Source: an uncultured Desulfuromonadales bacterium
GTDB taxonomy: Bacteria > Desulfobacterota > Desulfuromonadia > Geobacterales > CAIOGM01
Direction of reading: 5' to 3'
Assembly (NCBI GenBank): GCA_903929485.1
Contig: CAIYUY010000306.1
Span: 1 to 33,091, forward strand
DNA length: 33,091 nucleotides
Position numbers and translations under genes: made by a program. A model generated the notes under the pieces. That model ran no database searches. It saw nothing but the letters and a program-made list of their open reading frames with translations, and was not told the origin of the DNA. Shown in pieces: positions 2,094 through 25,381 of this stretch (its first letter is position 1; the number at the start of each line of letters is the position of its first letter).

Positions 2094-2321
2094 CTACGAC
2101 TCAACATCTCTCGCCATAAAATGCGGATCGTTCTTGATGCAGTCGTACATGATCCCGCTGCACTCTTCCAGCGCCTCAAACGCCTGCTTCAACGCCGTGC
2201 GGGTCTCAAAGAGCGCGATGAAGTTATCAGTACCGGAGCGGTGGGCAATCTCGAAGTGTCGCTCCAGCTCGGCCACCCTGATCTCCAGCTTCCTGACATA
2301 CCTCGCTTCCTTGGCGGTCAT
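2094..2321 (-). CDS. Hypothetical phage-element protein
   Basis: 75-aa ORF in a same-strand overlapping gene string. Confidence 0.5.
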   Translation of the reverse strand: MTAKEARYVRKLEIRVAELERHFEIAHRSGTDNFIALFETRTALKQAFEALEECSGIMYDCIKNDPHFMARDVES

Positions 2322-2602
2322 CGGTTCAGTACCTCACAGTTATAACTCCCCCTTGTTGTCAGCTTCTTGATATGCGCCTGAAACTGGTCTTCCAGCCACC
2401 CTGGCCCCTTGCGCCCTTCCAGCTGCCGCAAATACGTTTCCGCTGCCTGCATCACGTCTAGAGCCTCCGAGGCCTTCCGCTCATCAGACTCCAGATGCAG
2501 ATGAGCATAGTCCAGCTCCAGAGCCTCATCGAAAATCTTGTGGGCCTGAACACGTTCATTAACCGTGTCCACAAACCGCGTTTTCGGAAAAAGAAACCTC
2601 AT
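2318..2602 (-). CDS. Hypothetical phage-element protein
   Basis: Start trimmed to MRFLFPKTRFVDTVNERVQ (ATG 2602), giving a 4-bp overlap with the upstream ORF. Confidence 0.5.
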   Translation of the reverse strand: MRFLFPKTRFVDTVNERVQAHKIFDEALELDYAHLHLESDERKASEALDVMQAAETYLRQLEGRKGPGWLEDQFQAHIKKLTTRGSYNCEVLNR

Positions 2603-2877
2603 GCTCCCCCCAGAATCTTCCCGCTGAACGCCCGGGCCAACTCCAGATACAGCTTCCCCCAGACCTGACAAAACGGTTTCGCCTTCTCTCCCTCGCCATT
2701 GTTTAACAACTCGTCCATCTCCTTCTCCGCCGCCTTAAACCGGACATGCACAGCAGCCTGCTCCGTCGTGCAAAATTCCCAGAAGAACACCGGATCGCGC
2801 AGGCAGTGGGGGAACTTATCCCGCAACACCGCCTCCAGTCGCTTGGCCATCTCCAGCACCACCGCCTCACCCGACAT
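2599..2877 (-). CDS. Hypothetical phage-element protein
   Basis: 92-aa ORF overlapping both neighbours. Confidence 0.5.
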   Translation of the reverse strand: MSGEAVVLEMAKRLEAVLRDKFPHCLRDPVFFWEFCTTEQAAVHVRFKAAEKEMDELLNNGEGEKAKPFCQVWGKLYLELARAFSGKILGGA

Positions 2878-3307
2878 GCTGTAAACTCCTGGCCGGGTTC
2901 AACATCAGCATTTCCGCTACATCAGGATGCGGCACAAACGGGACAGCTTTCGTGCTCGAGCTCCGTCCCCAGATCTCCATCTTCTTTGCGCAATGGGCGC
3001 AGAGGCCGCTGACAGAGTAATAAACCACTCGGTTGCCGCACTCCACCACCCGGCAGGGCTTAGTTGATCGTGGTGCGCGTGGCTCGGCAGGAGCGGCATA
3101 ATTGCCGTTATGCTGCCGCATCTCCTCCATGGATATCACCCGCAACGCCGGAAGAAGCTTCACCTGGGCGAACCGCCGGCTGCAATTCATGCAGACCGCC
3201 TCATCCTCCACCGCATACATCTCATCTCCCCCCACGATACAGGTTTCGAACTTCAAAGCCCCGCCGCACCGGGGACACCGGGGATTTCTCTCCCGCGCCT
3301 CACTCAT
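2867..3307 (-). CDS. Double zinc-ribbon protein
   Basis: CPRCGG...CMNC and CRVVECGN...CAHC cysteine pairs. Confidence 0.6.
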   Translation of the reverse strand: MSEARERNPRCPRCGGALKFETCIVGGDEMYAVEDEAVCMNCSRRFAQVKLLPALRVISMEEMRQHNGNYAAPAEPRAPRSTKPCRVVECGNRVVYYSVSGLCAHCAKKMEIWGRSSSTKAVPFVPHPDVAEMLMLNPARSLQHVG

Positions 3308-3333
3308 AACCCCTCCCGTAAACCCGCACAGAT

Positions 3334-3382
3334 AACGTAGAACGTAGAACGTAGAACGTAGAACATGGAACCTAGAACCTAG
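3334..3382. repeat. Heptanucleotide tandem array, 7 units (AACGTAG/AACCTAG)
   Basis: AACGTAG x4, AACATGG, AACCTAG x2, exact 7-bp period. Confidence 0.95.
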
Positions 3383-4017
3383 AACGGGGAAAGGATCTTC
3401 AGCTTATCCACATACGCCCGCACCGGACCATCTCCGCCGCCATAGAAATCGTCAACTTCCCCCTGGCGGATCATCCCCTTCACCTCGATATCCTGACCGG
3501 CCGCCACGGCGTCGAACAACTTCTCACCCTGCAGCCAGAGCTCAAACAGCTCCGAAGACTCCTGATAAGCATCCTTCGCCTCCCGGATCACCCGGAGCAG
3601 CACCCGTTGCCCGCCATCCGTCGTCGCCGTGACCTGGTCAACCTCACCCCGCAGGATGAACACCGCCCGCGCCTCCGCCGTCGTCGCCTCCGCCGAAAAG
3701 CAGGTAAAGTTGTTATAGAAAATATTCTTCTCGTCATCGCAATAGCTGGTCATCATCCCCCGCAGCACCAGCGCCGCCGGCTTCGTCTTGAACAGCCCCA
3801 TGAAATCCTGGCACCGCTTTTCTCCCCAGACCCGGCAAAACGCCGTAGCCTGTCCCGACTTCGCCCCGCTCACATTCATCTTGATGGAGAGATACGGCTT
3901 CCCGCCGCTGCTCAGTAACTCCTCCACTTCCGTCACCCGACCAAACACATGCCCGCTGTTAAAATGCCCGTTACCGCTCACCACTGCACCTCCTGCAGTT
4001 CCCGTTGTTTCGCCCAC
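3379..4017 (-). CDS. Hypothetical phage-element protein, possible OB-fold/ssDNA-binding-like
   Basis: 212 aa; beta-rich segments such as YLSIKMNVSGAKSGQATAFCRVWG. Function is inference only. Confidence 0.55.
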   Translation of the reverse strand: MGETTGTAGGAVVSGNGHFNSGHVFGRVTEVEELLSSGGKPYLSIKMNVSGAKSGQATAFCRVWGEKRCQDFMGLFKTKPAALVLRGMMTSYCDDEKNIFYNNFTCFSAEATTAEARAVFILRGEVDQVTATTDGGQRVLLRVIREAKDAYQESSELFELWLQGEKLFDAVAAGQDIEVKGMIRQGEVDDFYGGGDGPVRAYVDKLKILSPF

Positions 4018-4262
4018 TCCTCCACGATCTTCAGCAGCCGGTCCGGATCAGTGCTGGGTTGATACTTCGCCAACTGAGAGCTGTTCAACTTCTTCCGGGC
4101 GCCGTTCTCCTTGATATGCCCCACGATCCAGCTGTCCCCGAGCCCCTGCAGCACTCCGATCTTGATCTTACCCGTCGGCCCGAACCACCACCACGCCCGC
4201 TCCCGGTGAAAAGCCTGTCGCCGCCTCTCCTTCATCTCCGCCTGCAACTCCATCAACGTCAT
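3978..4262 (-). CDS. Hypothetical protein
   Basis: 94-aa ORF overlapping its neighbours. Confidence 0.5.
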   Translation of the reverse strand: MTLMELQAEMKERRRQAFHRERAWWWFGPTGKIKIGVLQGLGDSWIVGHIKENGARKKLNSSQLAKYQPSTDPDRLLKIVEEWAKQRELQEVQW

Positions 4263-9164: not shown

Positions 9165-10286
9165 ATGTCCGTCCGCCCCTACCGCGACAAGAAAACCGGC
9201 GACATCGTCCCCAACAAATTCATTCTCGATTTTTACCCCAAGGGCCGCAAGGGGAAACAGGTCAAAGTAGTTGTCGATGACGTTACCGAAGCCCAGGCCC
9301 ACACCCTGGAGCTGGCCTGCCGCCGCCAGGCGAACAACACCCCCGTCGGTCACGATCCCAAGGTAATAGACGTCTGGCCCGACTTCCTTATCCATTACGC
9401 ACGGGATCATACCGAAAGCACCATCATCGATATCCAATACGCCGCCGTCAAACTCATGGCCCATTTCGGCGACTGGCATCTCTCCCGGTTGACCCTGCCC
9501 CTCTGTGAACAGTACCTGGACAGCCGGAGCAAAGACCTATGGCGACCACCCATCACCGGCAAGCGTGATCCCAACAAGATCTACGCCCCAGCCAAACCCA
9601 TCTCCAAGGGGCGCATCAACACCGAACTGAAGTATTTCTCTGCATTTCTGACCTACTGTGTCGCCAAGGCACACATGCTCCCCCTGATGTTTCCGCTGCC
9701 CAAATTCAAGCGTCTACCCAAGGTTCACCCGATTCTTCCTTCCCTGGACGAAATAGACCGGCTCTTGCCCCTTCTTCACGACGCGGCCTACTTGGCCCTG
9801 CTCCTCTACCATGACGCAGGCCTGCGCCGCGATGAAGCGCTCAATCTACAAACCAAGGATGTAATGCTTGACGATAGCGCCATGTCGGTGATAGGAAAGG
9901 GGCGCAAACAGCGGTTTGTCATCATCAAGACCGATCGCTTGCGTCAAGCACTGGAAAAGCGGCTGGCCGAAGTCAAGAGCGGGGGGCTCCTGGTCAATCC
10001 GGATACCGGGCAACCCTATAAAGACCTTAGCAAAGCCATCAAGAACGCCGCCGAAAAAGCCGGGATATCCCTGCGTATTTACAACCATCTCTTCCGGCAT
10101 GCCCACGCCACCCGCTCCCTGGAAGCCGGTGAAAGCCTGGAAAACGTAAGACAAGACCTGGGCCATGCCGACATCGGCACCACCCAAGGATACCTCCATG
10201 TAATGCTGGAATCCCGGCGCAAAGACGCGGAAAAGTTCGAAGAGTTTCTTGCAGCCAAGAAATTAATGAGAGACAAAGGCAAGTAA
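9165..10286 (+). CDS. Tyrosine recombinase (integrase)
   Basis: 373 aa with DAGLRRDEALNL, HLFRHAHATRSLEAG and LGHADIGTTQGYLHV catalytic blocks. Confidence 0.93.
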   Translation: MSVRPYRDKKTGDIVPNKFILDFYPKGRKGKQVKVVVDDVTEAQAHTLELACRRQANNTPVGHDPKVIDVWPDFLIHYARDHTESTIIDIQYAAVKLMAHFGDWHLSRLTLPLCEQYLDSRSKDLWRPPITGKRDPNKIYAPAKPISKGRINTELKYFSAFLTYCVAKAHMLPLMFPLPKFKRLPKVHPILPSLDEIDRLLPLLHDAAYLALLLYHDAGLRRDEALNLQTKDVMLDDSAMSVIGKGRKQRFVIIKTDRLRQALEKRLAEVKSGGLLVNPDTGQPYKDLSKAIKNAAEKAGISLRIYNHLFRHAHATRSLEAGESLENVRQDLGHADIGTTQGYLHVMLESRRKDAEKFEEFLAAKKLMRDKGK

Positions 10287-10412: not shown

Positions 10413-10595
10413 ATTTTGCGTTCCGGCCGTGAAAGCGCGCCGGCGTGGCGTGGAGCGGTATCTGTCGTGAAAAATGTTGCAAGGGATGTTTTTCCCGTGT
10501 ATGTTGCCAAAAACTAACAGAACGCCCCTGACACAGAGCCTGTTTCATGCAGTTGTCATCCCGTTGCTCCCATTCCTTGATTGTGTGAGGTGCAG

Positions 10596-11432
10596 ATGAG
10601 TTTCGCCGAAAGTTTCAGATCCCACCGTGTTCTCTTTTTTCTTCTGCTGCCGTTGTTTGTGTTGATGTACTATAACATCGTGCCGTCCATGGTGGAACAG
10701 TGGTATAACGACCCCAATTACTCTCATGGATTTATCGTGCCGATCATCGCCGCCTATTTTCTCTATGAACGGCGCGAAGAGTTGATGAAGACAGAGTCGG
10801 CGCCGTCCGCTTTCGGAATTCTTCTCCTTATCTTCGGCCTGCTGCAACTTTGCGCCGGGTATCTGGCCTTCGAATTGTATACCATGCGATCATCCCTTAT
10901 CGTGCTTCTTGCCGGGATGATTCTCTATTTTTTCGGTATGAAGGTGTTCCGGATCATGTTGTTGCCGGTGCTCTACCTCTTTTTCATGGTTCCGCTCCCC
11001 TATATTGTTTACGACTCCATTGCATTCCCTCTCAAACAGTTGGTCGCCAAATACTCAGTGGATGCCCTGCAGCTCATGGGGGTGATCATCATTCGCGAGG
11101 GAAATATCCTTATTCTACCCGAGACGACGCTGGAGGTGGCCGACGCCTGTAGCGGCATCCGGTCGCTGGTCTCCTTGCTGGCCCTGGCCGCTGCGTTTGC
11201 CCTCATTACCCAAAAGGGAACCATTAAAAGGGTCATCATTATTGTCGCCGCTATTCCCATTGCCATCCTGACCAACGGAGTAAGGGTCATGGGAACCGGG
11301 ATTCTTGCCCAGTACTGGGGAGCCAAAGCTGCCGAGGGTTTTTTTCATGAATTCGCAGGGTTGGCTGTCTTTGCCGTGGCGCTTCTGCTCATGGCCGGAC
11401 TGGGAGCGCTTTTGAACAGGGGGGGAAAATGA
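10596..11432 (+). CDS. Exosortase (EpsH/Xrt family)
   Basis: Multi-TM protein; NYSHGFIVP, EVADACSGIRSLVSLLALAAAFA, NGVRVMGTG, FHEFAGLAVF. Confidence 0.92.
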   Translation: MSFAESFRSHRVLFFLLLPLFVLMYYNIVPSMVEQWYNDPNYSHGFIVPIIAAYFLYERREELMKTESAPSAFGILLLIFGLLQLCAGYLAFELYTMRSSLIVLLAGMILYFFGMKVFRIMLLPVLYLFFMVPLPYIVYDSIAFPLKQLVAKYSVDALQLMGVIIIREGNILILPETTLEVADACSGIRSLVSLLALAAAFALITQKGTIKRVIIIVAAIPIAILTNGVRVMGTGILAQYWGAKAAEGFFHEFAGLAVFAVALLLMAGLGALLNRGGK

Positions 11433-12064
11433 TCAAGTCATGGCGATTCATGGTAGTCTATCTACTCATGGCTGTCGCGGGGCTCTATGTTACCCTGCAC
11501 AAGGATCTCATGGTTCCGGCAACTATTCCCCTGGGGGAATTTCCCGTGACCAACGGTCCATGGCGCCAGCTATCACGGGGAGAATTCAGCAAGGAAATCC
11601 TTGAGGTGCTCAAGCCCACCGATTATCTCTCCGCCGAGTATGTGAACGGTCAGGGGGAGAAGGTGGAACTCTATCTTGGATATCACGGTGGCGGTAAGGG
11701 TGGGGGAGAGATTCACTCACCCAAGCACTGTCTTCCCGGAGGGGGATGGCTCAAATTGTCGGAGCGGGTTGTCTCCTTGAAAGTCGGGGGGAAGGAGATT
11801 CCCACTGTTCAGGCGGTGTACCAGAAAGGGGGGAAGAGGGAGCTCTTCGTCTACTGGTTTCGTGCCCCGGGAGACGAGGCGATTGCCAGTGAGATTGGTC
11901 TGAAGCTGGCCCAGATCCGGAGTTCCATTACCTCCCGTCGGCGGGACGCCACTTTTATCAGGATATCTATTGCTTTCGAGGGTGACGAGCAGGGGAAGCT
12001 GGCCGCCGCGAATACGTTTATTCAGGATTTTTATCCGTTGTTCCAAAAATTTCTACCCTCATGA
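11429..12064 (+). CDS. epsI: Exosortase-associated EpsI family protein
   Basis: 211 aa; LGYHGGGKGGGEIHSPKHCLPGGGW; 4-bp overlap with the exosortase gene. Confidence 0.9.
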   Translation: MIKSWRFMVVYLLMAVAGLYVTLHKDLMVPATIPLGEFPVTNGPWRQLSRGEFSKEILEVLKPTDYLSAEYVNGQGEKVELYLGYHGGGKGGGEIHSPKHCLPGGGWLKLSERVVSLKVGGKEIPTVQAVYQKGGKRELFVYWFRAPGDEAIASEIGLKLAQIRSSITSRRRDATFIRISIAFEGDEQGKLAAANTFIQDFYPLFQKFLPS

Positions 12065-12122
12065 AAGTGGTGGCCACCATGTGGGGCGGATGTGTCGGAA
12101 TAATGAGGAGGAAGGTGATTCT

Positions 12123-13409
12123 ATGAGCATGGATCGAATTATTTCAGTGGTGGGGTTGGGGTATGTGGGTTTGCCTGTGGCGATTGCCTTCGGTAAGGTT
12201 CGTCGGACGGTGGGGTTCGACATCAACCCGGTGAGGATCCAGGAGCTTCGTAGCGGCTACGACCGGACCGGCGAGGTAACCTCGGAAGATCTGGCCGGCG
12301 CCGACATACTCTTCACCGACCAGATTGACGATCTCCGAAGCGCCGACTTTCATATTGTGGCGGTCCCGACACCGGTGGATGAGGCCCATGTGCCGGACCT
12401 GGGGCTGGTCTTGAAGGCTTCGGAAACCGTAGCGAAGGCGCTTAAACCTGGAGCTATCGTTGTCTACGAGTCGACGGTTTATCCAGGCGCCACGGAAGAA
12501 GAGTGCGTCCCCGTTCTGGAGAAGGTTTCGGGGTTGAAGTGCGGATCGGATTTTACGGTGGGTTACAGCCCGGAGCGGATCAATCCCGGTGATAAGGAAC
12601 ACACCTTTACGACTATAATGAAGGTGGTCTCGGGCCAGGACGTTGCCACGCTGGAAACCGTGGCTCAGGTCTACGAATCGGTGGTCACCGCCGGTGTTCA
12701 CCGGGCCGGCTCCATCAAGGTGGCTGAGGCTGCCAAGGTCATCGAGAATACCCAGCGGGATCTGAATATCGCTCTCATGAACGAACTGGCGCTTATCTTT
12801 GACCGGTTGGGGATCGACACCAACGAGGTCCTGGATGCGGCGGGGACCAAGTGGAACTTCCTCAAGTTTCGGCCGGGTTTGGTGGGGGGGCATTGCATCG
12901 GTGTCGACCCCTACTATCTGACCCACAAGGCTGAAAAAGTCGGTTATATCCCCCAGGTGATCCTGGCCGGTCGCCGGATCAACGACAGCATGGGGACCTT
13001 TATCGCCCGCCAGACCATCAAGGAGATGATCCGCGCCGGTCATAACATCGTGGGGTGCCGGGTCACCATGCTGGGGCTTACCTTCAAGGAGGACTGCCCC
13101 GACGTGCGAAATACCCGGGTGGTGGATATCATCAGGGAACTGGAAGAGTACGGCATTCAGGTGCAGACCTGTGATCCCCAGGCGGATCCGGATGAGGCAA
13201 AGCATGAATACGGGGTGACATTGATACCGTTCACTGCGTTGAAGCCCGCGGTGGCGGTAGTTGTGGCGGTGGCTCATGCCCAGTTCAGGGCGCTGACCGT
13301 TCACGACATCTGCCATCTCACCTATGCTAATCCGGTTCTCATCGATGTCAAGGGGATCTATGGCCGTGATGAGTTCGTGAACAACGGAGTGCAGATCTGG
13401 AGGCTGTAA
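12123..13409 (+). CDS. Nucleotide-sugar (UDP-HexNAc-type) dehydrogenase, TviB/WbpO-like
   Basis: [25 protein letters not shown]...[22 protein letters not shown]; start trimmed. Confidence 0.9.
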
Positions 13410-13414
13410 AGGCC

Positions 13415-13452
13415 GGAAAGGCCGGTCCCCGGTCCCCGGTCCCGGCTTTTCC
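13415..13452. repeat. GGTCCCC heptad array in the loop of a hairpin
   Basis: GGTCCCC GGTCCCC GGTCCCG (13424-13444), flanked by GGAAAGGCCGG / CCGGCTTTTCC. Confidence 0.9.
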
Positions 13453-13477
13453 TGTCCCCGACTGTGGAGGTGGCGTT

Positions 13478-14518
13478 TTGAGCAGATATGATGAGGTGCA
13501 AAGAGAGTTGCGGGGGGCGCCCAAAAGGTGGCTGGTTACCGGTTGCGCCGGGTTCATCGGTTCGAACCTGCTGGAGCAGCTCCTCCGTTTGGATCAGACG
13601 GTGGCGGGGTTGGATAATTTTTCCACCGGGAAGCAGAGCAACCTGGAGCAGGTCAAAAACCTGGTGACCCCGGAGCAGTGGGGACGGTTCACCTTTGCCC
13701 GGGGGGATATTCGGGAGCTGGAGTTCTGCCGGAGTCTCTGTCGCGGGGTCGACTACGTACTCCATGAGGCGGCTCTCGGCTCGGTTCCTCGCTCATTGGA
13801 AGATCCACTTACTACCAACGACAACAACGTCAACGGCACCCTGAACATGCTGGTGGCGGTGCGGGACGAAGGGGTGAAACGGATGGTCTACGCGGCCAGC
13901 AGTTCCACCTATGGGGACCATCCGGGGCTTCCCAAGGTTGAGGATGTCATCGGTAAGCCGCTCTCCCCTTATGCCGTGACCAAGTACGTGAACGAACTGT
14001 ATGCCGACGTCTTTGCCCGGAGTTACGGTATCCAGACGATTGGTCTCCGTTATTTCAACGTCTTCGGTCCCCGTCAGGACCCGGACGGAGCCTACGCCGC
14101 CGTCATCCCCCGCTGGATAGCGGCGCTTATCAAGGGGGAGCAGGTTTACATTAACGGCACCGGAGAGACCAGCCGGGATTTCTGTTTCGTGAAGAACGTG
14201 GTTCAGATGAATATCCTGGCCGCCACGGCCGGCGAACCCGAGGCGGTGAACCAGGTTTATAATACTGCGTTGAACGCTCGGACCTCCCTTAACGAACTGT
14301 ACGCCATGCTTCGGGAGCGGCTCCTCCCTCATTACCCTCATCTGGCCGGAGCCCGGCCGATTCACCGCGACTTCCGCCAGGGGGATGTGCTTCACTCCCA
14401 GGCTGACATCGGCAAAGGGCGCAGACTACTGGGGTATGACCCTACCCACACTATTAATCAGGGGCTGGACGCCGCCCTTCAATGGTACATCAGCAATGTT
14501 GGAGCGTCGCCGGCATGA
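13478..14518 (+). CDS. NAD-dependent UDP-HexNAc 4-epimerase, TviC/WbpP-like (TTG start)
   Basis: [59 protein letters not shown]. Confidence 0.9.
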
Positions 14519-15387: not shown

Positions 15388-15431
15388 AATTCTCCATTGC
15401 TTCTGCTACGTCAATGGCGTATGGTAGAGTC

Positions 15432-15752
15432 ATGGTCATCATCGAAACCCCAATATTTACCAAGCAGCTTTTATCCAATCTCTCCGACGAGGAATATCGT
15501 CTGTTTCAGGCAACCCTGCTGAAGCGACCTGATGTCGGAAAAGTCATTCCCGGCGGCGGTGGACTCCGCAAAGTGAGATGGGGTTTGGAAGGGCGAGGCA
15601 AAAGCGGGGGCGCAAGGGTAATTTACTACTGGTTTACGGAGAAAGGTACTATTCTGCTGTTGTTCATATATCCAAAATACGTGCAGGAGACCCTTACTCA
15701 GGATCAACTTAAACAACTCAAGAAGATCGTCGAGGAGGAATATCATGGATGA
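15432..15752 (+). CDS. RelE/HigB-family toxin
   Basis: IPGGGGLRKVRWGLEGRGKSGGARVIYYWFTEKGTILLLFIYPK. Confidence 0.85.
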   Translation: MVIIETPIFTKQLLSNLSDEEYRLFQATLLKRPDVGKVIPGGGGLRKVRWGLEGRGKSGGARVIYYWFTEKGTILLLFIYPKYVQETLTQDQLKQLKKIVEEEYHG

Positions 15753-16104
15753 AGAACTTTTTCAGGAACTGTTGGCAAGCGTGAAGCAAGGCGCAGAGAT
15801 AATGAAAGGTGCAATGCAGCCATCTCGATCATTTGAGTTCCCGGAAACCGAAGTTCGTGCTCTACGTGAGCAATTCGGTCTCTCACAAGATAAGTTCGCA
15901 GACCTTGTGGGTATCAGCGTAGGAACATTAAGAAACTGGGAACAAGGCCGACGTAAACCGGAAGGCCCCGCACGTGTTCTTTTGCAGGTTGCCTCCCGCC
16001 ACCCGGAGGCGCTTCTGGACATTGGAAGGGAACAGCCAAAACGAGCAGACCGCGCAGCATCATCCCCTTCAACCGGACGAACTAAAAAGGTTCTCGTCGG
16101 TTAA
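15745..16104 (+). CDS. HTH antitoxin, HigA/NadS-like
   Basis: LREQFGLSQDKFADLVGISVGTLRNWEQGRRKPEGPARVLLQVA; 8-bp overlap with the toxin gene. Confidence 0.87.
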   Translation: MDEELFQELLASVKQGAEIMKGAMQPSRSFEFPETEVRALREQFGLSQDKFADLVGISVGTLRNWEQGRRKPEGPARVLLQVASRHPEALLDIGREQPKRADRAASSPSTGRTKKVLVG

Positions 16105-16476: not shown

Positions 16477-16534
16477 GTAACGCTGCCGGAAGTAATTCAG
16501 AAAATGACCTATCCATTAAAGGCGGTGTCACCAG

Positions 16535-18508
16535 ATGGAATGGCAAAGCGATCAATTCCCGTACATAAAAAGGCTTACCCCCGATTACGAAAAGGCGATC
16601 GCGAACCTCCCCCTCCTCAATATCGACTCGCTGCTGATCCCGTCTCCCTATATCCTGGACAAGGCCCTGGACATCGACTACGGGCACAGTTTCGTCTGGG
16701 ATGAAAAGGGTGAACTGCTGGGGTATATGCTGGTGTATGCCATGCCGGATCGGAGCAAGTTCCATATCTACCGTCAGGTTACCAGTCCTTTCGGAAGGGG
16801 GAAAGGAATCGGCACGGCCTTTATTCGCTATCTTGCCCAGACGGTGGCGCCGGATTCCCTTATCTACCTGTATGTCTGGGATAAGCTGATCAGCTCCATC
16901 GACTTTTTCAGAAGCAAGGGTTTCACCGTGGAGGATCTCACGGTCTACCGGAAGATGAAGTTCCACCTCATGTCGGTAACTGCTTCCAGGCTCAGGGAAA
17001 AGGTGGTCTCAACCAGCCGTCCGGATGTCTCCATGGTTGAAGAGTTCTCCAAGGTGCGCCATGACGTGAAAAAATCAGTGAAGGTCCTCTTTGACATGTG
17101 CGCCATAATGTCGGAAGACAATATCAATAAGGTTGCCGAGGATATAAACAGGGAGACTACCGCGCTTCTCAACACCCTGAACATGTACGAGGATACGACT
17201 CACACTTCACACAAGGTCTCCCTCAAGGATCTGATTACGGAACGACTCCTCCCCTTTGTGGAAGCGGTGGATAGTTCCTGCCAGGTTAGACTGATCCTTA
17301 AAGGGAGGATTGCGCCGGTAACCGGCAGTTACACAAATTTCAGTCGCGCCTTGATAAATATCGTGGCAAACGCCATGGATGCCATAAAGTCGGCGGAGAG
17401 ACGAGGCTTGATCGAATTCACCCTGGAGCAGCAGGATGATACGGTCACCCTTGTCATAATGGACAATGGTATCGGTATTGCTCCCGGTAGGCTCATCCGG
17501 GGAGCGGATCGGGCGCCGCTCTTTGTCGGCATCTCCACTAAATCCAGCATGGCCGGCGAGGGGATCGGGACGAAACAGGTCTACTCGACTTTTGGCGCGG
17601 ATAACCTTGTCGTGGAAAGCAAGGAAGGTGAATTCACCCGGTGGACCATCTCCCTGAAAAGAACTGTCGCCAAGGAGACGGCGCTGCTGGCGGATCTGAG
17701 CACCCGGTATGTCAGGTTCATCAAGTCAACCCAAAAAATAGGAATTTCCAGGGGGAGCAGCAGGACCGATATCGCCGGCTTCATCTGGCAGCTCAGACAG
17801 ATGGAACTGTTCAGCTACGATCTCCTCTACCACTTCAGCAGGTATAACAACATCCGGGATATCTTCCACTCTGTTCTTCTGTACCGGTTCGGCGGTAAAC
17901 CGTTCGATTACCTCAAGGACGAGGTGAGGAAGTGCCGCATCCATGACAGCTCCATCGGATCGTGGCTGCTGGGAATGATCAAGCGGATCAGCAGGAATGA
18001 GAGCTACCTGGCGGAGCTTGTGCCGTTTCAGGAGTACAAGGATGTCCTGTTCCAGAGTTATGGCCAGGCCGTCGGCCGCACCATGATCTTCACTCTTGAC
18101 CCTGAAAGCGGTCATTTTTTCACCACTGATCGAAAGTTTGCGGAACATCTGGACTTTGTGCCGTATCTTCGCCGCACCAGGGATGAACTGCTACGGGGAG
18201 AACTTGTCGGCGATGTCAGGAATGTCGGCAGCCCTATCTACCTGGGGGTCTGGAGCGTAACGGATATTCAGGATCTGAACAAGAAATTGCAGTTGATCCG
18301 GAGAGGGGCGGAGCAACTGCTGAAGATGGGGCTCAACAGGGAAAAGAGGATCGCCTTCTACTCCACCACGTATAATAGCTGTGACAAAGAGATCGATACC
18401 CAGAAGAGTGTGACGCTGGGGGAGATGGCAGCTCTTGATGCAGTGGAGATGGGTCGGTTCATCAGGGACGCCGACAACGAGATGATGGGGGTTCTCCTCA
18501 CCACCTGA
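16535..18508 (+). CDS. GNAT acetyltransferase-histidine kinase fusion with C-terminal unknown domain
   Basis: N-term GNAT (VTSPFGRGKGIGTAFIRYLAQTV...SIDFFRSKGFT); KVRHDVKKSVKVLFDM H-box-like; N box NIVANAMDAIKSA; IMDNGIGIAPG; GEGIGTKQVYSTFGA; ~280-aa C-terminal extension. Confidence 0.82.
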   Translation: MEWQSDQFPYIKRLTPDYEKAIANLPLLNIDSLLIPSPYILDKALDIDYGHSFVWDEKGELLGYMLVYAMPDRSKFHIYRQVTSPFGRGKGIGTAFIRYLAQTVAPDSLIYLYVWDKLISSIDFFRSKGFTVEDLTVYRKMKFHLMSVTASRLREKVVSTSRPDVSMVEEFSKVRHDVKKSVKVLFDMCAIMSEDNINKVAEDINRETTALLNTLNMYEDTTHTSHKVSLKDLITERLLPFVEAVDSSCQVRLILKGRIAPVTGSYTNFSRALINIVANAMDAIKSAERRGLIEFTLEQQDDTVTLVIMDNGIGIAPGRLIRGADRAPLFVGISTKSSMAGEGIGTKQVYSTFGADNLVVESKEGEFTRWTISLKRTVAKETALLADLSTRYVRFIKSTQKIGISRGSSRTDIAGFIWQLRQMELFSYDLLYHFSRYNNIRDIFHSVLLYRFGGKPFDYLKDEVRKCRIHDSSIGSWLLGMIKRISRNESYLAELVPFQEYKDVLFQSYGQAVGRTMIFTLDPESGHFFTTDRKFAEHLDFVPYLRRTRDELLRGELVGDVRNVGSPIYLGVWSVTDIQDLNKKLQLIRRGAEQLLKMGLNREKRIAFYSTTYNSCDKEIDTQKSVTLGEMAALDAVEMGRFIRDADNEMMGVLLTT

Positions 18509-18529: not shown

Positions 18530-19639
18530 TTACCTTGTTTGGGTGGCTGAAGTTACAATGACCGGGGTAACCGGTTTACTGTCCGTTGCGGAAACCGGGA
18601 CCGCTTCAATCGCCTTTACGATATCAAACCCCTGGATGACACTCCCGAATGCCGCATATCCGCCGGAGCCGGCGTCAAGGGAGGAGTTGTTAACCGTATT
18701 GAAAAAAAACTGGGTCGTTGCGGAATTAACATCGGTTGTCCGGGCCATGGCAATGGTCCCTTGCAAGTTGGTAAGCCCTGTCGCCGATGGCAGCTCCAGG
18801 GCTATCGCCCCATGAGTTGGACTCTTTTGTACGCCGTCGATGCCGAAGCCCCCTCCCTGAACCACAAAGCCCGTAACTACGCGATGAAAAATCGTACCGG
18901 CGTAGAATCCCTCGTTCACATAGCGCAGAAAGTTGTTGACGGTTATGGGCGCGTTTGTAGGATAAAACTCCACGACAATAGTTCCCATGCTGGTGACGAA
19001 GGTTACTTGAGGGGGCGGAACCGGAAATGAGATCTGTTTCAGGGCGGTTCCATCACTGGTTACGAAAATAGTCACTGTCCCTACCGAAGTCGGCGTACAT
19101 GAAAAAGTCCGCGTTGTTGCCGATCCCCCGGCTGCTTCCGTCAGGCTGGAGCAGGCGCCCACCGCCGTCACCGTGGCGTTTCCCAGATCAGCGCCGCTCA
19201 CGGTAAAGCTGCTCTGTTTCGAATACATCACCGTGGGAGAGGTGATTGAGGTCACCGCCGGGGAGAGGCAGAAGAGAGGCAATGGTGCGCCACCGGCACG
19301 TACTGCGTCGCATATTCCCGGCAGCGTGAGCAGGCTGCTTCCCGAGACCCCCTGGGGCCCCAGCGGCAGGGTCAGGTTCAGAACCTGATTGGGTGCAACC
19401 CCCGTAATGGTTGCCCCCGCCGTTGTCCCGGAACTCACCGTCCCCATGGCCATGGTAGTGGCGGGACCGGCCGGTCCCTGGAGCTGAGCTTTACTTTGAA
19501 CGCTCCCATCGGAGAAAACAAGATCTCCGCCATCCCTGATGCTCAGGTCTCCGCTGACAATGGTTGTGGCTCTAACCTCTCCGGAATAAAAGAGAACCGT
19601 GATCATGGCGACATACGGAATGGAACGGATCCAGCTCAT
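18530..19639 (-). CDS. Secreted cyclophilin-type peptidyl-prolyl isomerase with collagen-like N-terminal region
   Basis: Hydrophobic N-terminus; GPAGPA...GPQGVSG; PPIase IFHRVVTGFVVQGG...GTIAMARTTDVNSATTQFFFN. Confidence 0.87.
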   Translation of the reverse strand: MSWIRSIPYVAMITVLFYSGEVRATTIVSGDLSIRDGGDLVFSDGSVQSKAQLQGPAGPATTMAMGTVSSGTTAGATITGVAPNQVLNLTLPLGPQGVSGSSLLTLPGICDAVRAGGAPLPLFCLSPAVTSITSPTVMYSKQSSFTVSGADLGNATVTAVGACSSLTEAAGGSATTRTFSCTPTSVGTVTIFVTSDGTALKQISFPVPPPQVTFVTSMGTIVVEFYPTNAPITVNNFLRYVNEGFYAGTIFHRVVTGFVVQGGGFGIDGVQKSPTHGAIALELPSATGLTNLQGTIAMARTTDVNSATTQFFFNTVNNSSLDAGSGGYAAFGSVIQGFDIVKAIEAVPVSATDSKPVTPVIVTSATQTR

Positions 19640-22899: not shown

Positions 22900-25155
<2,256 letters not shown>

Positions 25156-25381
25156 TCGTTTCTCCTTTGGCATGTTTATTTTTGGTAAAATGCACAGTGT
25201 GTAACCGATTGATTCTGAACGAAATAAGAATGCTTCTATTTTATGACCGCTAAATACGATAATGATTGATTACGGTAAAGTCAATAACGTTTTAAGACTT
25301 CTCAAACTTTTCAGCATGTTCCGTCATGTCGGCCGGCGCTGGGCGCATTCTGATTTTGTCTCCCCTCGGACGCTGCAACTC

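Follow-up and report, generated by a model that had tools for sequence, protein, structure and literature searches.

A conserved fusion of a GNAT domain, a histidine kinase core, and an unassigned C-terminal domain in Geobacter-like bacteria

Geobacter-like bacteria carry a genuine single protein, well conserved among them, in which an N-terminal GNAT domain, a histidine kinase core, and a large C-terminal domain are joined in one chain. The copy described here has 657 amino acids and is encoded on the forward strand (positions 16535..18508, stop codon included) of a 33,091-nucleotide contig (C306) from an uncultured Desulfuromonadales bacterium; we refer to this whole stretch as the window. 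The kinase and GNAT parts are of known kinds, and what is new is their arrangement and the C-terminal domain. The open-access literature that we searched, most subscription papers lying outside it, gave no account of a GNAT joined to a histidine kinase, and similar architectures may be present in domain databases. The fusion probably serves as a so far unstudied sensor that connects carbon metabolism with signaling. The most economical model for it, which we advance tentatively and at a little short of an even chance, is a soluble orphan histidine kinase that receives an acyl-CoA input through its GNAT-derived domain and carries a further module at the C terminus.

The open reading frame (ORF) begins with ATG, 9 nucleotides downstream of a ribosome-binding-site-like AGGCGG (16520..16525, +), and occurs once in its 5.36-Mb, 99%-complete source genome. 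Neither a known RNA motif in its leader nor a sigma-54 promoter signature 5' of it was found. The preliminary description of this DNA had read the ORF as one protein made of these three parts while allowing that two ORFs might have been joined artificially. Pfam and comparison with orthologues bear out the single protein. Joining by frameshift or misassembly is excluded: a scan of 85,462 species genomes recovered 38 related loci with the same architecture, and 244 Desulfuromonadia genomes yielded 44 full-length or near-full-length copies without internal stops, some of them on single-contig chromosomes.

A survey of the architecture across genomes, suggested at the outset, places the three-part protein in 45 of these 244 sampled Desulfuromonadia genomes, with one copy in each and a contig-end fragment only in one of the 45. 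The 38 related loci are 53-85% identical, match over the whole length barring contig ends, and bear record titles that are all Geobacterales, Desulfuromonadales, or unspecified Deltaproteobacteria; within the genomes searched, the fusion is confined to one class. A profile of the GNAT domain and the DHp segment of the kinase core retrieves the family at E < 1e-111 and one truncated remnant at 9e-18, with nothing else at E <= 1e-4, and a sample of 346 genomes from across the phylum gave just weak GNAT-like matches beyond the family. The C-terminal profile found the domain in no other architecture among those 346 genomes, and the class sample of 244 held no C-terminal-only matches except contig-end pieces. 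Given this sharp gap in E values and the results of the phylum sample, the three modules travel together. Plasmid and phage relatives are partial matches only, covering the HATPase core or slightly beyond. Membership in a defense system was considered and rejected, the sole match (Cas7d, E 0.008) being spurious.

Conservation along the chain follows the pattern of folded modules and flexible linkers. Mean pairwise identity is 0.69 for the GNAT domain, 0.73 for DHp, 0.62 for the CA domain, and 0.64-0.65 for the C-terminal domain, and it falls to 0.41 and 0.49 in the two linkers; the linker between the GNAT domain and the kinase core (residues 143-167; 16961..17035, +), at 41%, has no invariant column. 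In nine sequence pairs, dN/dS ranges from about 0.02 to 0.17 in GNAT, from 0.00 to 0.05 in DHp, from 0.04 to 0.17 in CA, and from 0.035 to 0.17 in the C-terminal domain. Every module is under purifying selection, and DHp is the most constrained. The gene tree departs in part from family-level taxonomy. One locus (L071, positions 2960-3200, genome G021) retains the first ~58 codons of the gene as a remnant, preceded by a ferredoxin gene and followed by stops, and is a visible case of gene loss. Because of the mismatch between tree and taxonomy, the lack of conserved synteny, and this remnant, we explain the patchy distribution by loss, possibly with transfer.

The GNAT domain spans residues ~10-145 (16562..16969, +) by AF2 secondary structure. 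The Acetyltransf_1 model (PF00583) matches residues 46-130 (E 1.3e-8, 35.6 bits against a cutoff of 20.7) and also 35 of 36 orthologues at E <= 0.01. The string GRGKGIGTAF, which the preliminary description had read as an acetyl-CoA motif, is indeed a proper GNAT P-loop: R88-G-K-G-I-G93 (16796..16813, +) follows the acyl-CoA pyrophosphate-binding consensus Q/R-x-x-G-x-G/A (PMC4964394). Loss of this motif in homologues, then named as a weakness to look for, is not what the relatives display, since K90, G91, I92, and G93 are present in 36/36 and R88 in 34/36, the other two having Lys, with rare changes at positions 87 and 89. The NxxAxxxY segment is altered throughout the family. When the NxxAxxxY...GF region is aligned by profile with the solved GNATs 6yzz, 3ld2, and 5icv, L118 falls at the position of the Asn and F125 at that of the Tyr (L118...F125; 16886..16909, +). 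Position 118 is Leu in 35 of the 36 relatives and Ile in one, and position 125 is Phe in all, so that the Asn and Tyr, usual in active GNATs without being strictly diagnostic of them, are both replaced; three ordinary GNATs (L082, L087, and L088) keep the two residues. The free-standing GNAT nearest to the family profile (L089, genome G275) has FF instead of the Tyr and is also missing the Asn.

These replacements bear on whether the domain is an active acetyltransferase, either regulated by the kinase core or acetylating the kinase or a response regulator, with cross-talk between acetylation and phosphorylation in one protein. We consider this reading possible, if somewhat unlikely. It is consistent with the nearly invariant P-loop and the strong purifying selection on the GNAT domain, and it draws on the co-transcription of the Porphyromonas gingivalis GNAT Pat with the response regulator RprY (PMC5706477). 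Moreover, although the Tyr has been proposed as the general acid of several GNATs, others have no assigned general acid, and the residue is dispensable in some (PMC4964394). Against it stand L/I118 and F125 in every relative, along with the absence of a conserved neighboring substrate gene over 34 loci. The substitutions would favor a ligand-binding over a catalytic GNAT, an argument that falls short of proof because some GNATs lack the Tyr acid and L089 shares the FF. Of the two forms of signaling first suggested, one linked to acetyl-CoA stays plausible; for one coupled to acetylation the support is weaker, given Leu/Ile118 and Phe125 at the Asn and Tyr positions of NxxAxxxY in 36/36.

In the kinase core, a DHp-like two-helix segment (residues 167-222; 17033..17200, +), supported by conservation, dN/dS, and alignment, precedes a CA/HATPase_c domain (residues 233-376; 17231..17662, +) identified by Pfam PF02518, Foldseek, and the orthologues. 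The HATPase_c model covers residues 269-376 (E 9.6e-9, 36.1 bits against a cutoff of 26.4) and matches 36/36 orthologues. The full set of N, G1, and G2 motifs noted earlier is present and its residues are invariant: N275 and N279 of the N box (17357..17371, +), D310, G312, and G314 of the G1 box D310-N-G-x-G314 (17462..17476, +), and G341, G343, G345, and T346 of the G2 box G341-x-G-x-G-T346 (17555..17572, +). Ordinary kinases, AtoS and HK853 among them, make up the NCBIfam and PDB sequence matches, and the DHp-CA structures of HK853 and ZraS rank first in Foldseek (E 5e-9).

Upstream of the CA domain, the putative phosphoacceptor motif H176-D-V-K-K180 (17060..17074, +) lies within KVRHDVKKSV, and the earlier view of this string as H-box-like holds. 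H176 and D177 are invariant, and in the family profile H176 aligns with the H-box His of four ordinary kinases of the same class (L076, L078, L079, and L080), whose H boxes are of the types VVHELNTPL-, GVRHEIGNPL-, and NIAHQWRQPL-. The phosphatase motif E/DxxT/N has T or N at H+4 (PMC11502775); here H+4 is Lys180 in 36/36, and D177-V-K-K180 thus departs from this motif, which is optional in a histidine kinase. Two observations count against a sensor kinase: no HisKA-type Pfam model matches (at E <= 1 for the query and E <= 0.01 for 36 orthologues), and AF2, while predicting helices at 167-190 and 194-222, gives a pLDDT of about 34-56 over residues 159-225, mostly below 50.

A GHKL ATPase without His-Asp phosphotransfer, in which ATP binding or turnover would drive a conformational change read by the C-terminal domain, could account for the unmatched HisKA model, for the invariant Lys in place of T or N, for the absence of a conserved linked receiver, and for a C-terminal domain that is never separate from the other modules in the genomes searched. 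It accords poorly with an invariant H176-D177 pair aligned with phosphoacceptor H boxes, with the exceptional constraint on DHp, and with a fold like that of DHp-CA kinases, and we regard it as quite doubtful. The noncanonical GHKL enzyme mentioned in the preliminary description is possible, yet the invariance of the H-box His and of every N, G1, and G2 residue makes a histidine kinase the likelier reading.

The C-terminal region had been described as some 280 residues that could not be assigned, and at about 275 residues it remains so. The domain-by-domain search with family and structure models that was then proposed recognized GNAT and HATPase_c and left this region without a match: Pfam found no credible family in residues 377-657; PDB sequences gave none even at E 10; and with the predicted structure Foldseek returned nothing at E <= 0.001 from the PDB (best 0.17, with TM-scores < 0.35 among the matches listed) or from BFVD (best 0.18). 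A cellular relative may exist among predicted structures beyond the PDB and BFVD. Modeled alone from 36 sequences, the region folds with a mean pLDDT of 90.1 and a pTM of 0.85 into a part of six helices (residues 382-509; 17678..18061, +) and an alpha/beta part (residues 515-645; 18077..18469, +). A roadblock/LC7-like reading of the alpha/beta part, prompted by its order of strands and helices, was set aside, as the host genome has no member of that family and the top Foldseek matches listed do not include it. Forty-seven residues of the domain are invariant, many of them polar or charged (7 R, 5 D, 3 E, and 1 H), and the invariant Arg and Asp would fit ligand or phosphate binding, or catalysis.

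Such residues could point to an enzymatic output, which would count against the sensor-kinase model. If the domain were an effector, the pathway would be complete in one chain: the ligand of the GNAT and the state of the kinase would govern an enzymatic or binding activity of residues 382-657, and no response regulator would take part. Its compact, confidently modeled fold, its conserved polar residues, and its constant covalent tie to the kinase agree with such a role, whereas neither homology nor fold matches hint at an activity, and many kinases with added C-terminal modules nevertheless work through a separate response regulator. We think this reading improbable. A related version, in which the protein is self-contained, a noncatalytic GNAT senses acetyl-CoA or CoA and gates the kinase core, and a C-terminal domain of undescribed fold is the output, would make it a class of acyl-CoA sensor with GNAT as the sensory domain; this version is unlikely, if slightly less so.

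The absence of an adjacent receiver or response regulator, reported earlier, was confirmed for the window, where the neighbors are, directly upstream, genes for a RelE-type toxin and then an HTH antitoxin in overlapping frames (15414-16104, +) and, downstream, a cyclophilin-type prolyl isomerase whose N terminus carries a long extension (18530-19639, -). At one other locus (L033) the orthologue likewise has a cyclophilin gene downstream, there on its own strand. Over about 34-35 loci, taken up to about 7 kb per side where the contig allows, there is no conserved neighbor, the most recurrent one being found at <=4/35 loci. The gap on the upstream side commonly measures a few hundred bases, in 18/33 cases the gene downstream lies on the opposite strand, and the neighbors scanned with Pfam show no relation to one another (pyridoxamine oxidase, IMPDH, GST, resolvase, cyclophilin, and others). 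A conserved operon or partner was rejected, as no neighbor recurs over 34 loci. The ORF is a stand-alone gene; without a conserved neighbor, any response regulator or partner would therefore act in trans.

Receiver-domain proteins are encoded by 2 of 10 scanned upstream genes. At L024, a hybrid PAS-histidine kinase-receiver gene (2309-4207, +) ends 57 bp before the orthologue, and a similar receiver end is visible upstream at L060 and L070; in one genome, an acetate kinase-family gene (L023, 6809-7978, +) ends 23 bp before it. The receiver-domain and acetate kinase neighbors look incidental. Within the window, a fusion of malic enzyme and phosphotransacetylase domains (22900-25173, -), belonging to acetyl-CoA metabolism, lies ~4.4 kb from the ORF, a linkage that is not conserved. 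The window also holds an exosortase gene of the EpsH family (10581-11432, +), with an integrase (9165-10286) and nucleotide-sugar genes (11970-14518) nearby, a pan motif RNA (RF01749; 28163-28249, +; 46.2 bits), and a tmRNA gene (RF00023; 32231-32642, +).

On the sequence evidence, an acyl-CoA-sensing kinase whose partner is unlinked seems to us a better reading than an active acetyltransferase, given the replaced Asn and Tyr of NxxAxxxY and the invariant Lys at H+4. The GNAT domain also occupies the usual place of a sensor domain, N-terminal to DHp-CA. The N-terminal GNAT would bind an acyl-CoA or CoA-type ligand, with acyl transfer probably poor or nil; the ligand state would pass through the variable linker to the DHp hairpin; the CA domain, with ATP, would phosphorylate H176; and the phosphoryl group would move to a response regulator whose gene lies elsewhere. 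The C-terminal domain would be a fixed extra module, serving as a second input or as a docking or output part. The architecture, its conservation, the ATP-site residues, the alignment of H176 with known phosphoacceptors, and the lack of a linked partner are observed; the direction of signaling, the phosphotransfer in trans, and the C-terminal role are inferred, as are CoA binding, autophosphorylation, and the partner, which limits our confidence.

If the GNAT domain is a sensor, the fusion would connect acetyl-CoA status, the center of acetate-based metabolism in Geobacter-type metal reducers, directly with phospho-signaling at the molecular level, and an acyltransferase fold would be in use as a sensory domain. 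The C-terminal domain, as a confidently modeled module, is open to structure solution and testing. Because the gene is present in one copy per genome and is patchily distributed, knockouts in culturable carriers, of which Geomonas sp. Red32 (locus L019) is one, should be easily interpretable.

Among known systems, the DHp-CA kinases HK853, ZraS, and AtoS resemble the fusion most, having a CA domain with N, G1, and G2 boxes, a His in the preceding two-helix segment, and an N-terminal input domain, and providing the best sequence and fold matches. The fusion differs from them in its N-terminal GNAT, where they have a PAS, HAMP, or membrane sensor, in lacking a HisKA match and a linked response regulator, and in its Lys at H+4 and large C-terminal domain. 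With GNATs (PF00583; NAA50 and NAA60) it shares the elements of the fold and the acyl-CoA P-loop RGKGIG, but it has L/I118 and F125 for the Asn and Tyr of NxxAxxxY and is joined to a kinase core. Multidomain regulated protein acetyltransferases combine a GNAT with a cyclic-nucleotide or ACT domain in one chain, whereas here a histidine kinase is the partner, and the GNAT resembles an input more than an output. In P. gingivalis, Pat is a separate GNAT whose gene adjoins that of RprY and is co-transcribed with it (PMC5706477); there, as here, a GNAT is genetically tied to two-component signaling, but as separate proteins, whereas the present protein is a fusion on the kinase side with a nonstandard GNAT site.
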